Source of the DNA: Orenia metallireducens
GTDB taxonomy: Bacteria; Bacillota; Halanaerobiia; Halobacteroidales; Halobacteroidaceae
DNA length: 64,000 bases
Assembly: GCF_001693735.1 (NCBI RefSeq)
Contig: NZ_LWDV01000010.1
Location: 269,196 to 333,195 of the forward strand
Reading direction: 5' to 3'
Under the pieces are notes generated by a model. That model was not told the origin of the DNA, made no database searches, and saw only the letters and a list, made by a program, of their open reading frames with translations. Below, in pieces: positions 3,881-40,612 of the stretch. The position numbers and the translations under genes were made by a program. The first letter of the stretch is position 1, and each line of letters begins with the position of its first letter.

Positions 3881-4477
3881 CTACCCTTCCAACTCAGTTT
3901 GGCGAGTGATAACCTCATCTATTAGACCATATTCTTTAGCTTTTTCAGCTGACATAAAATAGTCTCTATCTACATCTTTTTGAATCTTCTCAATTGGCTG
4001 TCCTGTATGATTAGCTAAAATATTATTAATAATATTTCTTAACTCAAGAATCTCTTTAGCTTGAATTTCTATATCTGTAGCTTGACCCTGAGCTCCCCCC
4101 ATTGGTTGGTGAATCATGATTCTAGAATAAGGCAAAGCAAATCTCTTTTTACTAGTCCCACTTGCCAATAATAAAGCACCAGCACTAGCAGCTAATCCCA
4201 TACAAATTGTAGAAACATCTGGCTTAATGTATTGAATTGTATCATACATAGCTAAAGCAGCCGTAACAGACCCTCCTGGACTATTGATATATATGTATAT
4301 ATCCTTATCTGGATCTTCAGCTTCTAAGAATAATAATTGTGCAATCACTGAGTTAGCTACTCTATCATCAATTGGACTACCAAGAAAGATAATTCTGTCT
4401 TTTAATAAACGAGAATAGATATCATAAGAACGTTCTCCTCTATTAGTTTGTTCAACTACCATTGGTACTAAATTCAT
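3881..4477 (-). CDS. clpP: ClpP, protease subunit
   Basis: The protein has 198 residues. The catalytic triad is visible: Ser in [12 protein letters not shown], His in MIHQPMGG and Asp in DVDRDYF. The N-terminus begins [20 protein letters not shown], as in active Firmicute ClpP, where a short propeptide is trimmed. It assembles into two heptameric rings that degrade substrates delivered by ClpX. An AGGAGGAGGGGG site precedes the ATG. A 17-bp inverted repeat lies in the 194 bp between tig and this gene. Confidence 0.97.
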
Positions 4478-4533
4478 AATTTCCCCCTCCTCCTTTTAAC
4501 TATGCCCATATTTGGACTTTTTAAACCTATTAT

Positions 4534-4651
4534 TTTAGAGAATTTCATAAAAGAATTTTTTATTATGACTAATTACTAGGTTAAATAAATACATGACAAT
4601 AGATAATCCTACTATTTAGGGGAATTAAGACAGATTATGAAATTCTCTAAA
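4534..4651. repeat. 17-bp perfect inverted repeat around the clpP 5' region
   Basis: The arms TTTAGAGAATTTCATAA (4534-4550) and its exact complement (4635-4651) enclose 84 bp upstream of clpP. On the minus strand the enclosed DNA holds a TTGTCA that could be a -35 element. No CtsR heptad pair or CIRCE element is visible. It could be an operator pair, an RNA stem or the ends of a tiny mobile element. Confidence 0.6.
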
Positions 4652-4671
4652 TTATTTAAAATGAATAATAA

Positions 4672-5949
4672 TTAATTATTTTCAACTAAAAAATCAATTG
4701 TTTTTTCCATTAGTAAACTATCTTTTAGTGAAGCTAATTGACCTTGCATCTGTAAGAACATCTTTAATTGATCTTTATCTTGACCTTGACGTTCAGCAAT
4801 TTCAGCTAATTTGGCATCTACATCTTCATCACTTACTTCAATACCTTCATTTTTAGCAATTGCTTCTAAAATTAAATTAGCTTTTGCTCTTTTTTCAGCT
4901 GATTCTCTATAATCTGCTCTAATATCTTCTTCGTTCATTCCAGTCATCTCTAAATATTGGTCAAATTCAAACCCTTGTTGCATAATTTGATATCTGAAAC
5001 CTTCTAGCATATTATCAATCTCATTTTCAATCATAGTTTCTGGTATATTAATTTCTGTATTATCTGTTATAGCATCAATTAATTTATTTTCAAATTCTCT
5101 ATTTACTCTTAACTCTTCTCTAGCAGTAATCTTTTCTTTAATATCTGCTTTTAATTCATCTAGAGTTTCAAATTCTAAATCTTTGGCAAATTCATCATCT
5201 AACTCAGGCATCTCTTTTACTTTAATTTCTTTAACTGTTACTTTAAATACTGCATCTTGACCTGCTAAGTTCTCAGCATGATATTCTTCTGGGAAAGTAA
5301 CATCAACCTCTACTTCCTCCCCAACTTTAGCTCCAACTAATTGTTCTTCAAATCCCGGAATAAACTGACCAGAACCGATTTCTAAATTATAATCTTCTCC
5401 AGCTCCACCTTCAAAGGCTTCACCATCTACAAATCCTTCAAAATCGATTACAGTATTATCTCCTTCTTGAACCTCTTCTCTATCAGTAACTACCAATTGA
5501 GCATGATGTTCCCTTTTATGATTTAATTCTTCTTCTACTTGCTCATCACTTACATTTATCTCTTCTTTTTCAATTCCAAGACCTTTATATTCTCCAAGCT
5601 CAACCTCTGGTTTTACTTCTACTTCAGCTGTAAATTTAGCAGGCTTTCCTGCTTCAATGAATACATCAGTAATATCAGGCTGAGCAATTGGTTCAATTTC
5701 TGTCTCCTGTACAGCTTTATAATAAGCTTCAGGAATTAAAATATCTAAAGCATCTTTATGTAATACTTCTGCTCCAAACTTCTTGATTAAAATACTCTTA
5801 GGAACCTTCCCTTTTCTAAACCCTGGGATATTAACCTCTTTAACAACTTTTTTGTAAGCTTTATCTAAAGCACTAGCAACCTTATCTTCGCTAACTTCAA
5901 TAGTTAATTCAACCTTATTTTCTTCAATTCTTTCTTTACTTACATTCAT
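4672..5949 (-). CDS. tig: Trigger factor, ribosome-associated chaperone
   Basis: The protein has 425 residues. It shows the ribosome-binding N-domain with signature GFRKGKVPKSIL (residues 43-54), an FKBP-type prolyl isomerase domain in the middle (ITVIDFEGFVDG-like region and GSGQFIPGFEEQLVG) and a helical C-terminal domain. It shields nascent chains at the ribosome exit. Very acidic composition fits a halophile or salt-tolerant host. AAGGAGG lies 7 nt before the ATG. The gene is first of the tig-clpP-clpX-lonB-lonA run, a widespread Firmicute order. Confidence 0.97.
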   Translation of the reverse strand: MNVSKERIEENKVELTIEVSEDKVASALDKAYKKVVKEVNIPGFRKGKVPKSILIKKFGAEVLHKDALDILIPEAYYKAVQETEIEPIAQPDITDVFIEAGKPAKFTAEVEVKPEVELGEYKGLGIEKEEINVSDEQVEEELNHKREHHAQLVVTDREEVQEGDNTVIDFEGFVDGEAFEGGAGEDYNLEIGSGQFIPGFEEQLVGAKVGEEVEVDVTFPEEYHAENLAGQDAVFKVTVKEIKVKEMPELDDEFAKDLEFETLDELKADIKEKITAREELRVNREFENKLIDAITDNTEINIPETMIENEIDNMLEGFRYQIMQQGFEFDQYLEMTGMNEEDIRADYRESAEKRAKANLILEAIAKNEGIEVSDEDVDAKLAEIAERQGQDKDQLKMFLQMQGQLASLKDSLLMEKTIDFLVENN

Positions 5950-6403
5950 TATATTTCCTCCTTATATTATTATACGTAATTATATGTATTTTATTTCATT
6001 TATCCAAAAGCTACTATTTCTTATCTTCATTATATATTTTAAAATTGAAGAAAAAGTGTAACTTCAGATAGATCTATCAAAAAATAAATTCACATTATTG
6101 ACTATTTCTATATAATCATAGAATCTCCTTTATATTTTAGCCATTTTTATAAAATCATTCTATTAATAAATTCAAAGTGAAATTTATGTTATTTTTTATT
6201 ATTTATTAAAAACTACAATCAAGTTTTTAATGATATTCTAAGGAGATATAACTACTCTATATAGTACGAATATTAAATTTTTCTCTTAAAATTTAATATA
6301 AGGCAGAAGATTAACTAAATTTAGTAGTAAATAAAAACATCAAGAATAATAAAATCCCTTGATTTCTATAAAATTTTAAAGATAGTTCATAAATAAAAAC
6401 AAT
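5950..6403. other. AT-rich non-coding gap upstream of tig
   Basis: This stretch between tig and the tRNA operon terminator is very AT-rich and carries no convincing ORF or RNA. It should contain the tig promoter; a TATAAT-like hexamer is visible near 6033 on the minus strand, but without a good -35 element. Confidence 0.5.
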
Positions 6404-6437
6404 ACCTCGAGATACGACAATATAGTCGTTCCGAGGT
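6404..6437 (-). terminator. Terminator of the tRNA operon
   Basis: The stem ACCTCG..GATACGAC pairs with GTCGTTC..CGAGGT around a 6-nt loop. On the minus strand it is followed by ATTGTTTTTATTT. It lies 115 nt past the last tRNA gene. Confidence 0.8.
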
Positions 6438-6552
6438 CTTATAGTAAAGCTTAAAAACAAGATATAATTTAAAGTATGAATTCAATTCAATAAATATGTA
6501 TAAATTTAGTTAACACAATCTATATTTACTAAAATCAATAATTCTTAATTAA

Positions 6553-6629
<77 letters not shown>

Positions 6630-6644
6630 ATAGTATACTAGTTT

Positions 6645-6712
6645 ACAGTAAAAAAAGATTTTAAAAACTTAAAGGTTTTGAACTTAACTGTCAATTGCAA
6701 ACTGTTAACAGA
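6645..6712. repeat. Repeat in tRNA spacer (copy 1)
   Basis: The segment contains GTTTACAGT, an AACTTAAA..TTTTGAACTTAACTG block and a closing AACTGTTAAC. It recurs at 7223-7325 and in shortened form at 6961-6990. The TTTTGAACTTAACT core is the complement of the AGTTAAGTTCAAAA block in the repeats at 12.9 and 28.8 kb. Confidence 0.6.
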
Positions 6713-6719
6713 TTTAAAA

Positions 6720-6796
6720 TGGAGCGGGAAACCAGATTCGAACTGGCGACACCCAGCTTGGAAGGCTGGTGCTCTAGCCAACTGAGCTACTCCCGC
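6720..6796 (-). tRNA. tRNA-Gly(TCC), copy 1
   Basis: A 77-nt cloverleaf with encoded CCA. The acceptor GCGGGAG pairs with TTCCCGC. The anticodon stem is CCAGC/GCTGG and the loop CTTCCAA gives anticodon TCC, reading GGA/GGG. It differs from the second copy mainly in the T-stem (CCAGT/ATTGG-type instead of CGAGT). Confidence 0.95.
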
Positions 6797-6877
6797 ATAC
6801 TATTAATTAGGTTTTAAACATAAAAAAATATACTGCCTATAAGCAGTTTATTCTAAGTGAAACTATTTTATTATAAA

Positions 6878-6954
6878 TGGCATGCCTGAGAGGATTCGAA
6901 CCTCTGACCCACGGCTTAGAAGGCCGTTGCTCTGTCCAGCTGAGCTACAGGCAC
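6878..6954 (-). tRNA. tRNA-Arg(TCT)
   Basis: A 77-nt cloverleaf with encoded CCA. The acceptor GTGCCTG pairs with CAGGCAT through one G-T pair. The anticodon stem is ACGGC/GCCGT and the loop CTTCTAA gives anticodon TCT, reading AGA/AGG, the main arginine codons in this AT-rich genome. Confidence 0.95.
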
Positions 6955-7140
6955 AAGATTAATTAGTTTACAGTTAAAAAACTTTAAGAAATTAACTTCT
7001 TATTGTATTTTAAATGCAACGATCTCAATGACCTAGCATCGAAAACTACCTTGCGTTCTTTGAATCAAAGTTTTAGATGCCCCAACCCCGATGGTCAAGT
7101 ACTCAAAATTTCCTTTCGCCCTAAAATTAAAATTTTTAAG

Positions 7141-7217
<77 letters not shown>

Positions 7218-7222
7218 ATAAG

Positions 7223-7325
7223 ATTAGTTTACAGTGTACAGTTAGAAATAAAAGAGATTTTAAGAACTTAAATCTTTTGAACTTAACTGTTCACTGTCAA
7301 TTGTAAATTGTAAACTGTTAACTAA
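7223..7325. repeat. Repeat in tRNA spacer (copy 2)
   Basis: This is a longer version of the 6645 spacer: GTTTACAGTGTACAGTTAG, then AACTTAAATCTTTTGAACTT and a tail of AACTGTT/TTGTAAA direct repeats. It probably belongs to the dispersed intergenic repeat family or spread when the tRNA units duplicated. Confidence 0.6.
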
Positions 7326-7332
7326 TTTTAAA

Positions 7333-7409
7333 TGGTCGGAGCAGCAGGATTTGAACCTGCGACCCCCTGGTCCCAAACCAGGTGCGCTACCAAACTGCGC
7401 CATGCTCCG
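7333..7409 (-). tRNA. tRNA-Pro(TGG)
   Basis: A 77-nt cloverleaf with encoded CCA. The acceptor CGGAGCA pairs with TGCTCCG. The anticodon stem is CCTGG/CCAGG and the loop TTTGGGA gives anticodon TGG for CCN proline codons. It is transcribed first in the cluster, about 140 bp after yfcE. Confidence 0.95.
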
Positions 7410-7552
7410 TTGCTTTACCGCTCATCTCCCTTGCGACATTTAATAGTATACCTAAAAAAGAGGGCAAGGTCAAAAGAAGAAAAGCGGAATAATAGTTATT
7501 ATCATAAATTAAATCATAAATAATCCCCTTTTCTCCATTTATCTATAGTATG

Positions 7553-8038
7553 CTAATTGTTTGATTTGAAATCAAAATGCTTGTAAATTATCTTATTATC
7601 TCTGATTTCAATTATTCCATAAGATGGAGCCTTACCATCTCTAGGTGAAGAGATACTCCCAGGGTTAAAGAACAAGATTCCATCTTCTTCAATAGCATAG
7701 CGACGATGGCTATGACCAAAGATTACTATATCTGCTTCTACTTCCTTTGCCTTATAATAGAGCTTATCCAACCCATAATTAATCATATAATTATGACCAT
7801 GAGTTAAAAAGAGCTTCATATTTCCTATATTAGCCAATTGATCTTCAGGATATTCCGTACTATAATCACAGTTTCCCCTTACAGCTAATAACTTTATATC
7901 ATCTAATATCTCTACTTCTTTTAAATCTCCAACTATATCTCCAGCATAGATGATATAATCAATATCTTCTAATTCTTGTACTACTTGATTCATCTTCTGA
8001 CCTTGTCCATGGCTATCACTGAATATTACCAATTTCAT
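7553..8038 (-). CDS. YfcE/MJ0936-family metallophosphoesterase
   Basis: The protein is about 161 residues and starts at MKLVIFSDSHGQ; the six extra codons upstream overlap the GGGTGGTGAT ribosome site and are probably not translated. The small calcineurin-like phosphodiesterase motifs are clear: DSHG, GDIVGD, VRGNCD, LTHGH and FGHSH. It is a soluble Mn/Ni-type phosphodiesterase homologous to Bacillus YsnB, whose natural substrate is uncertain. The order rph-rdgB-this gene matches the Bacillus rph-ysnA-ysnB cluster. Confidence 0.9.
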   Translation of the reverse strand: MKLVIFSDSHGQGQKMNQVVQELEDIDYIIYAGDIVGDLKEVEILDDIKLLAVRGNCDYSTEYPEDQLANIGNMKLFLTHGHNYMINYGLDKLYYKAKEVEADIVIFGHSHRRYAIEEDGILFFNPGSISSPRDGKAPSYGIIEIRDNKIIYKHFDFKSNN

Positions 8039-8070
8039 TATCTCATCACCACCCAACTACAATTTAACTG

Positions 8071-8109
8071 TATAAATAGCCACAGGTTTGAACCTGTGGC
8101 TATTTATAG
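8071..8109 (-). terminator. Strong hairpin between rdgB and yfcE
   Basis: Long near-perfect arms (ATAAATAGCCACAGGTT and complement) sit 25 nt past the rdgB stop codon, with A/T-rich stem bases serving as the tail. It probably ends or reduces transcription into yfcE. Confidence 0.75.
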
Positions 8110-8134
8110 TTATAATTTAATATTTTTAATATTA

Positions 8135-8719
8135 TTATTTCATTAAATACTCTTTCATTTTTTCTAAAGCTTTAGCCCTATGGCTAATCTTATTTTTAAC
8201 TTCACTTCCTAATTGAGCAAAACTCTTCTTATATCCCTTAGGAATAAATAATGGGTCATAACCAAATCCCTCTTCACCCAATGCATTGAAAGTAATATGA
8301 CCATGGCATTTACCTGTCACTGTATACTCTTCACCTTCAACAGATACAAATGACATAGCACAGATAAAATAAGCCTTCCTTTCTTCTAAAGGAGTATCCT
8401 TCAATAATTCTAATAACTTCTGATTATTCTCTTGATCTGTAGCATGCTCCCCTGCAAAGCGGGCTGAATATACCCCTGGTTGACCACCTAAAGCTTCAAC
8501 AACCAACCCAGAATCATCAGCAATAGTAGACATACCTGTATACTCAGCAATCTTTCTAGCCTTTTTTAGGGAATTACCAATAAAAGTATCCTGATCTTCT
8601 ATCACCTCTGGCATAGCATCAATATCATTTTTAGAAAGAATCTCTATATCTGTATCTGCTAAAATCTTCTCCATCTCTTCTATCTTATGTTGATTTCCAG
8701 TTGCTAAAAATAACTTCAT
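8135..8719 (-). CDS. rdgB: XTP/dITP pyrophosphatase (HAM1/RdgB family)
   Basis: The protein has 194 residues, the usual length. The family signature is MKLFLATGNQHKIEEM at the N-terminus, with TIADDSGLVVEALGG around residues 65-80, GEEGFGYDPLF and SHRAKAL near the end. It hydrolyses non-canonical purine triphosphates (XTP, dITP) to monophosphates and keeps them out of nucleic acids. Only 3 bp separate it from rph upstream, so the two are co-transcribed. Confidence 0.96.
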   Translation of the reverse strand: MKLFLATGNQHKIEEMEKILADTDIEILSKNDIDAMPEVIEDQDTFIGNSLKKARKIAEYTGMSTIADDSGLVVEALGGQPGVYSARFAGEHATDQENNQKLLELLKDTPLEERKAYFICAMSFVSVEGEEYTVTGKCHGHITFNALGEEGFGYDPLFIPKGYKKSFAQLGSEVKNKISHRAKALEKMKEYLMK

Positions 8720-14829: not shown

Positions 14830-15025
14830 GACAACCATATACTGAAAACTTTTTATGTTTGAGCTGTAAGCGAGTTTAAAAGTTTTCTTGATTGGATTTA
14901 TCACGAAGGATTCCAAGAATGAATCAGTAGGTTTAGTTACTTTTTATCAAGAACGCCGTGAAAGAAGTGCTCTTCTTCCTGAAGAAGTAGTCTTGGGCTG
15001 AAAACGTAACTCGCCCTCAAGCAAC
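14830..15025 (-). repeat. Dispersed intergenic repeat, fragment (copy C)
   Basis: Read on the minus strand it runs GGGCGAGTTACGTTTTCAGC, CCAAGACTACTTCTTCAGG, a TTACTTTTT-like linker with AACTAAACCTA, and GATTCATTCTTGG. The same blocks in the same order occur at 40095-40275 on plus. No terminal inverted repeats were seen. Confidence 0.65.
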
Positions 15026-38819: not shown

Positions 38820-39299
38820 ACTCTCCATTCTAAACTTATTATATTATTATCTTGACACTAATTATGACTATAAAATGACTAAATTAACTATTAGGAAATT
38901 TTTTCTTCATCTTACCTTAAAATCCCCTTTCCTTCTTTAATATATTTTCAAGGTCATTTACTAAAAACCTTTATGTAAATTTAATTACTGATAACTTAAT
39001 CTGGTAATTTCCTATCTTGCAGTTATTACCATACCTTCAAAATATCTTTATAATTTAAATGTTAAATAATTATCATTATCTTTACTTTTATTCTCCATTA
39101 ATTCTTAGTTAAACTTTAATTATCCAATTTATCTATGGCTATAAACCAGACATAGTAATTTAATTATAATATACAAACTCTATTTTCTCTAGACTACTTT
39201 ATGTATTAATAAAAACAATAGTTATTTTTTTACTTTTATATGAATATGCTAGTTTATAGTATACCAAAAATTCCATCTAATAGATTGGAGGATTTATTT
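38820..39299. other. Divergent intergenic region with possible Fur-like site
   Basis: This AT-rich region lies between the minus-strand amidase operon and the plus-strand membrane protein gene and must carry both promoters. AATAATTATCATTATC at 39065-39080 matches most of a Fur box. The 5' in-frame part of the plus ORF (39240-39299) is taken as leader because it has no ribosome site. Confidence 0.35.
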
Positions 39300-39929
39300 A
39301 TGAATATTGATATAGTCTTACTCTTACAATTAGGCTGCGGACTATTCTGGTCTTTAACTTATCTATTAATTATAGTTAAAGGTTTCCATGACAGAACCTA
39401 CGGAATGCCAATATTGGCTATTTGTGCCAATATATCATGGGAATTTATCTTCTCCTTTATTATCCCTCACCCAAGTCCACAACTTTACATTAATATTATT
39501 TGGTTTATTCTTGATTCGATTATCTTATTTCAATTTCTTTATTTTGGGAAAGCAGACTTCAAAGAAACCTTTTACCAGAAGTACTTTTATTCTATCTTCT
39601 TAATAACATTAGTAATTAGTTTCTTAAGTATCTTACTCATCTCTTATGAGTTTAATGATAACCTTGGTAAGTATGCTGCCTTTGGACAGAATCTTATGAT
39701 GTCTATCTTATTTATAACTATGCTAGTAAGGCGTGGTAATCTTGCTGGACAATCATTATTTATCGCCTTATTTAAGTTATTTGGTACATTATTTGTCTCT
39801 ATTGCTGCTTATATGATTGAATACTCTACACTTATAACCTTTCTTTCTATAGCTACTTTTTTCTTTGATTTTGTCTATACTATACTACTATATAACTATA
39901 ACCTTAAAATCAGAAATAAAGCTATATAA
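39300..39929 (+). CDS. Candidate transmembrane terpene cyclase homologue (Pyr4/PaxB-like)
   Basis: The protein is 209 residues, starting at MNIDIVLLLQLGCG with GGAGG 8 nt upstream. It has about seven hydrophobic segments. GLFWSLTYLLIIVKGF, YGMPILAICANISWEF and WFILDSIILFQFLYFG match the layout I know from the Pyr4/PaxB transmembrane terpene cyclases, including the Glu after SW and the Asp in ILD where that family has catalytic acids. Such proteins cyclise prenyl chains of meroterpenoids. No prenyltransferase is nearby, so the function is unsure. One of only two intact plus-strand genes here. Confidence 0.6.
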   Translation: MNIDIVLLLQLGCGLFWSLTYLLIIVKGFHDRTYGMPILAICANISWEFIFSFIIPHPSPQLYINIIWFILDSIILFQFLYFGKADFKETFYQKYFYSIFLITLVISFLSILLISYEFNDNLGKYAAFGQNLMMSILFITMLVRRGNLAGQSLFIALFKLFGTLFVSIAAYMIEYSTLITFLSIATFFFDFVYTILLYNYNLKIRNKAI

Positions 39930-40029: not shown

Positions 40030-40612
40030 GGATGATATTACGATACTTTACTTTACTTTTAAAAAGTAAGCAAACTTCTTAGGTTCCGCCTAGGGGCGGG
40101 TTAGGTTTTCAGCCCAAGACTACTTCTTCGGGTTTGAACAGATAACCCTTCGTGAAATTTTAATTTTTATGGTTCTCCTACGGGGCGTCCTTGATGCACC
40201 CCAAGAGTACTTCTTCAGGCGTAGTACCTTCAGGGCGAAAAAGTAACCAAACCTACGGGTTCATTCTTGGATTTATTACGAAAGGTTTTTGTTCAAAAAC
40301 CTGTAGGGAACCCTTCATGGTCCTACAGGGAATATAATGCAATTCCCTTTCGTGCAAAGCCAGTCCAATCCAGAAAAAAATATACCTACGGGTTTAAAGA
40401 ACAAACCCTCCGTGGCAAAGCCCACTCACTCAGCAATCAAGATATTAGTTATTATTAATCAGATTCTCTAATCAAAATCAGATTAAACTTTAAATTTTGG
40501 CTCAATTTTTGCTTTGTTCAAACAGAAATCTTTTCCGTTTTTAAAGATTTTAACTGTTCACTGTTTACCTTACACTGTCAACTCAAAAAAATGTCATAAT
40601 ATATCCATTAAG
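40030..40612 (+). repeat. MITE-like repeat with inverted ends (copy F, longest)
   Basis: The left end GGATGATATTACGATACTTT and the right end AAATGTCATAATATATCC are inverted versions of the family end. Next to the left end is ACTTTTAAAAAGTAAGC, then TTAGGTTCCGCCTAGGGGCG and TTTTCAGCCCAAGACTACTT. The interior has more GC than its surroundings and several CCTACGGG/CCCGTAGG-like pieces. The right part has TTGCTTTGTTCAAACAGAAA. No transposase is inside; the short ORF at 40267 has no family likeness. Confidence 0.7.

Follow-up and report, generated by a model that had tools for sequence, protein, structure and literature searches.

A Pyr4-family transmembrane protein encoded outside terpenoid gene clusters in the anaerobe Orenia: a probable cyclase of a resident membrane prenyl lipid

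Pyr4-like transmembrane terpene cyclases have so far been studied almost wholly as natural-product enzymes. The genes of the fungal members of the Pyr4/PaxB type lie in meroterpenoid clusters that also encode a prenyltransferase and, in most cases, an epoxidase. The characterized bacterial members—XiaE/XiaH, DmtA1, ZigF, TylF, and GroF—are found in gene clusters as well (PMC13307353, PMC6173783). DmtA1, the drimentine cyclase of Streptomyces youssoufiensis, accepts a farnesylated diketopiperazine, whose farnesyl chain it cyclizes via protonation of a C=C double bond and without an epoxide (PMC6173783). Changes of its residues W29, Y33, N56, W59, E60, D214, or Y217 abolish or lower activity, with the exchanges E60A and E60Q abolishing it (PMC6173783). 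Epoxide-free cyclization has also been described for the fungal mfm pathway (PMC10882540), and protonation of a terminal alkene was proposed for ZigF (PMC13307353). A study from 2026 collected 1107 bacterial Pyr4-like candidates, of which only the 264 with nearby terpenoid genes were kept (PMC13307353). The branch to which the protein described in the following belongs looks like part of the remaining three quarters or so (1107 minus 264), which were set aside there.

The window analyzed here—a stretch of 64,000 nucleotides of DNA from Orenia, a salt-loving anaerobe of the order Halanaerobiales—carries a gene whose product the initial annotation took for a possible cyclase of the Pyr4/PaxB type, and profile comparison leads to the same family. 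The protein matches PF25129 with an E value of 1.5e-26 and 93.9 bits (cut-off 27), residues 5–199 being aligned to positions 16–223 of the 227 positions of the profile, and is a new member of the already known Pyr4 family. A better match to another seven-helix family was looked for in Pfam, where no further family is hit even at E 10; NCBIfam holds no model for the 209-aa protein. All 78 scanned homologs match PF25129 too, any other family appearing weakly in at most four of them. The idea that few bacterial relatives have been studied is outdated, as some 1,100 sequences from bacteria are on record and several of the enzymes have been characterized (PMC13307353). Members of PF25129 comprise about 200–250 aa and seven transmembrane helices, and the Orenia protein agrees with this in its length and in its AlphaFold2 model. 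It shares with the fungal cyclases the sequence family, the seven transmembrane helices, and the catalytic Glu and Asp, whereas the fungal genes are clustered and the Orenia gene stands alone in an anaerobe. The transmembrane lycopene cyclase (PF18916), which is likewise membrane-embedded, proton-driven, and built of helix triplets, bears no sequence relation to it according to hhalign (probability ≤0.5). The features of the gene are compiled in Table 1.

Table 1. Coordinates within the window of the Orenia cyclase gene, its ribosome binding site, and the codons of conserved residues; residue counts refer to 83 aligned sequences
Feature	Position	Strand	Basis
CDS, Pyr4-like transmembrane terpene cyclase (PF25129), 209 aa, seven TM helices	39300..39929	+	Pfam; AlphaFold2; dN/dS
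Ribosome binding site GGAGG, 8 nt 5' of ATG 39300	39287..39291	+	Sequence; kept in all three Orenia species
Trp17 and Tyr21 codons, TM1, equivalent to DmtA1 W29 and Y33	39348..39362	+	Trp 82/83, Tyr 82/83; DmtA1 mutagenesis
Asn44, Trp47, and Glu48 codons, TM2, equivalent to DmtA1 N56, W59, and E60	39429..39443	+	82/83 each, the other being a gap
Asp72 codon, TM3, third family-conserved acid	39513..39515	+	82/83; mostly retained in distant members
Asp190 and Tyr193 codons, TM7, equivalent to DmtA1 D214 and Y217	39867..39878	+	Asp190 81/83 (2 gaps), Tyr193 82/83 (1 gap)

The longest version of the reading frame, which ends with TAA, starts from a second in-frame ATG upstream, at 39240. Since both other Orenia species keep GGAGG and ATG 39300 but not the sequence upstream of them, the later ATG is taken as the start. 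The good ribosome site and the lone position on the opposite strand, both pointed out in the initial annotation, are confirmed: the flanking genes lie mostly on the minus strand, and the cyclase gene hence stands alone. By sequence reading, it is flanked on one side by a 163-aa open reading frame and a gene resembling N-acetylmuramoyl-L-alanine amidase, and on the other by an intergenic stretch, a small Lys/Glu-rich open reading frame, and a gene resembling glucose-6-phosphate isomerase. A Fur-like box that had been suspected upstream could not be recovered, as no 19-bp Fur consensus occurs near the gene with up to three mismatches allowed; in the other Orenia, the stretch ATTATCATTATC at about 39069–39080 shows no conservation. 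The genome holds a single copy. Two congeners carry the gene, with identities of 85% and 66%, the closest named relative being Orenia metallireducens with 85%. The dN/dS ratio, 0.11 in the comparison with O. metallireducens and 0.13 in that with the third Orenia, indicates purifying selection on the protein. In this third species (L085 in genome G002), the neighborhood is a different one, with genes that by open reading frame resemble sulfur-uptake and rhodanese genes; the gene has therefore been relocated within the genus.

On the level of single residues, conservation is pronounced. A homolog scan returned 80 loci of 36–85% identity; the counts in Table 1 refer to 83 sequences. The Glu and Asp positions that had been likened to those of the fungal enzymes stand out, every sequence lacking Glu48 or Asp190 showing a gap there; a loss of these two acids in homologs, which would speak against a cyclase, was sought and not seen, as each homolog with a residue at these sites keeps them. 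Trp17, Asn44, Trp47, Glu48, Trp68, and Tyr193 are invariant in an alignment of 78 sequences, and distant members found with the Pfam model retain nearly the same set. The seven residues of DmtA1 that were probed by mutation are all present in the Orenia protein at matching spacing (PMC6173783), a correspondence established by spacing and motif rather than by alignment with the DmtA1 sequence: Trp, Tyr, Asn, and Trp precede the Glu by 31, 27, 4, and 1 residues in both proteins, and the Asp and Tyr of the last helix are three residues apart in both D190/Y193 and D214/Y217. DmtA1 differs in that its gene is part of a cluster, and it bears the additional acids D94 and E133, which lie outside this spacing-based comparison (PMC6173783). 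Glu48 is, on this basis, the putative proton donor.

The closest relatives form a broad branch spanning about ten bacterial phyla and archaea. Hosts are found among Bacillota, in Orenia, and among Chloroflexota, Cyanobacteriota, Bacteroidota, Planctomycetota, Actinomycetota, Myxococcota, the ammonia-oxidizing archaea of the Nitrososphaerota, and Methanoperedens, and further comprise a Spirochaetales member, a Micrarchaeota member, and a Verrucomicrobia bin. A literature search yielded no paper on archaeal Pyr4 homologs and, to our knowledge, no cyclase of this stand-alone branch has been characterized. The tree of 94 sequences largely follows host phylum, with 18 changes of phylum label against a minimum of 14 and 48.8 after shuffling; these values come from a tree of uneven support and unsettled bootstrap, and from a scan that favors close relatives of the query. 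The gene is rare—one of 398 genomes of the phylum bears it, and among near relatives three of 61, all of them Orenia—so that its function, whatever it may be, is dispensable in most relatives. Six plasmid records from Nostoc and Streptomyces carry a copy, and no carriage of homologs by phages was found. Taken together, frequent recent exchange seems a less apt description of its history than ancient inheritance followed by many losses, or transfers that happened long ago.

The surroundings of the homologs point away from a fixed pathway context. The 99 immediate neighbors at about 60 dereplicated loci fall into 182 Pfam families, the commonest of which, the histidine kinase ATPase, occurs in five. 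No isoprenoid family is among the 25 commonest, and no conserved operon partner was found, since only closely related hosts, for example Lysinibacillus and Psychrobacillus, have neighbors in common. Neighborhoods were interpreted outside the GC-rich actinobacterial loci, where longest-frame gene calling is poor. In the flanks, which were searched with single UbiA and polyprenyl synthase queries that divergent copies may escape, a UbiA gene lies within about 8 kb of the homolog at only two loci (L078 and L080), which together form their own supported branch; a polyprenyl synthase is found beside one distant actinobacterial member only. On a 19-kb plasmid of Nostoc sp. C057 (p057_N; L118, 9001–10809), the homolog precedes an isopentenyl phosphate kinase gene (NF040647, E 6e-54) by about 370 bp; as a general partner this kinase was rejected, since it accompanies the homolog on this one Nostoc plasmid only. 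Also for the Orenia gene itself, no terpenoid gene and none of the genes that would mark it as cluster-borne—UbiA prenyltransferase, polyprenyl synthase, or epoxidase—lies beside it in the window, which sets it apart from XiaE/XiaH, ZigF, TylF, and GroF, bacterial enzymes of the same family that are all cluster-borne (PMC13307353).

A tree largely following phylum, together with the lack of conserved or isoprenoid neighbors, suggests that the protein probably works alone on a prenyl lipid resident in the cell, and not as a cyclase of a natural-product cluster. In full, we consider it fairly probable that the gene encodes a stand-alone, proton-initiated Pyr4 cyclase whose substrate is a prenyl lipid of the membrane, likeliest a demethylmenaquinone-type tail in the case of Orenia. 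Such an enzyme would be membrane-embedded and type II-like, holding the prenyl chain within a bundle of 3+1+3 helices. Glu48 on the second helix, tuned by Tyr21, Asn44, and Trp47, would protonate an alkene near the end of the chain, and aromatic residues would stabilize the resulting cation. Asp190 and Tyr193 on the seventh helix—and perhaps Asp72 on the third—might shape the acid network or accept the final proton. The cation would close at least one ring before losing a proton or being captured by an internal nucleophile. As such a reaction would require neither oxygen nor an epoxide, it is compatible with the life of a strict anaerobe; with DmtA1, the mfm pathway, and the proposal for ZigF as epoxide-free precedents, growth of Orenia without oxygen does not stand in the way of cyclization.

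The candidate substrate follows from the prenyl metabolism of the host. The Orenia genome contains two polyprenyl synthases, one of the farnesyl and one of the long-chain type, and a single UbiA-family match above cut-off, which is a 1,4-dihydroxy-2-naphthoate polyprenyltransferase (NF004752, E 7e-113). Because this is the only UbiA enzyme of Orenia, a demethylmenaquinone-type quinone, presumably already present in the membrane, would be the first candidate. In the other two Orenia and in a Spirochaetales host, the single UbiA protein likewise scores best as a dihydroxynaphthoate prenyltransferase. The presence of a UbiA protein as such does not discriminate, since it is found in 12 of 12 hosts and equally in all 14 control genomes.

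An enzyme of the same class and mechanism could instead act on a non-quinone substrate: undecaprenyl or another polyprenol, an archaeal-type ether lipid in archaeal hosts, or an imported small prenyl compound. We regard this as possible and as clearly the less probable reading for Orenia. It would accommodate the homologs in archaea and in very different phyla as well as the isopentenyl phosphate kinase beside the one plasmid homolog. In the Micrarchaeota host (L051), moreover, one UbiA protein resembles an archaeal lipid enzyme, which agrees poorly with a quinone as the substrate throughout the branch. Against it stand the dihydroxynaphthoate type of the only UbiA enzyme in Orenia and the preference of characterized family members, which mostly use prenylated aromatics (PMC13307353, PMC6173783).

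Much less room is left for a conventional natural-product cyclase that would make a meroterpenoid in Orenia together with partners encoded elsewhere in the genome. The cluster-borne nature of all characterized bacterial members (PMC13307353, PMC6173783) speaks for such an enzyme. However, the absence of terpenoid genes near the cyclase gene in the window, the one UbiA protein above cut-off being MenA/DmkA-like, and a branch that largely tracks host phylum without clustering make this quite improbable.

The seven-helix layout read from the sequence is reproduced in an AlphaFold2 model calculated from the 78-sequence alignment (pLDDT 95.7, pTM 0.90). When this model is compared with the PDB by Foldseek, all matches of probability 1.00 are SWEET transporters, the KDEL receptor, and cystinosin, with TM scores of 0.51–0.63 and a best E value of 4e-3, followed by a sharp drop; viral PQ-loop proteins give a similar structural match. 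The predicted 3+1+3 fold is thus common to the Orenia protein and the PQ-loop superfamily, to which the former shows no Pfam sequence similarity while keeping the cyclase residues. Phmmer finds no relative, and no Pyr4-type cyclase sequence, in the PDB, and our literature search found neither a paper on a solved structure of such a cyclase nor one that states this fold for the Pyr4 family. A model of the UbiA-linked family member from the Verrucomicrobia bin (L078, 1122–1769) returns the same SWEET, KDEL receptor, and cystinosin matches. Hence, the 3+1+3 fold, as predicted, appears to belong to the whole Pyr4 family and is not a sign of transport. At the sequence level, an internal repeat of helices 1–3 and 5–7 is weakly hinted at, TM3 aligning with TM7 (P 0.029). 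A transporter or receptor of the SWEET, PQ-loop, or KDEL-receptor type without enzymatic activity, which the exclusive Foldseek matches would suggest, is highly improbable given the retained catalytic residues, the same fold likeness of a UbiA-linked member, and the lack of any MtN3 or PQ-loop match in Pfam at E 10.

For the preferred cyclase of a resident prenyl lipid, the newly described aspects are its stand-alone, cross-domain branch and the role outside natural-product biosynthesis that this branch suggests. A branch that reaches across domains without cluster partners, in a tree largely following phylum, points to ordinary lipid metabolism. One might go further and speculate—doubtful as this extension is at present—that an ancient bacterial and archaeal Pyr4 branch outside natural-product clusters introduces a ring into the isoprenoid tail of a core membrane lipid, for example of menaquinone or demethylmenaquinone, and so tunes respiration or extracellular electron transfer, the fungal and actinobacterial meroterpenoid cyclases being recruits from it. 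If true, this would identify a gene for quinones that bear a ring, or for other cyclized membrane prenyl lipids, and with it a possible ancestor of the natural-product Pyr4 cyclases. Lysinibacillus, a cultivable host of a homolog, makes the role testable.

Some further observations concern the host, distant relatives, and the vicinity of the gene. Elsewhere in the Orenia genome, genes resembling flavin-based extracellular electron transfer are found at 4254–8706 of locus L125 (G000:C9:100000-115000) and at 7624–8568 of locus L124. There, the long-chain polyprenyl synthase gene adjoins one for an ApbE-like flavin (FMN) transferase and is near that of a 600-aa NADH-dehydrogenase-like protein, the dihydroxynaphthoate polyprenyltransferase being encoded separately; the arrangement recalls the Ndh2/FmnB/DmkB genes with which Listeria carries out flavin-based extracellular electron transfer. 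O. metallireducens is a metal reducer. Three actinobacterial proteins (L134, L135, and L136) match PF25129 only weakly (E about 1e-6). They align with Asp where the catalytic Glu would be, lack conserved Trp residues, and are possibly divergent relatives with another function. Finally, the intergenic region at 40060–40260 has a G+C content above that of its surroundings and contains two imperfect 23-nt repeats (CAGCCCAAGACTACTTCTTCGGG). Related 14-mers recur at 14978 and 36284 of the window, giving four occurrences where 0.2 would be expected by chance.
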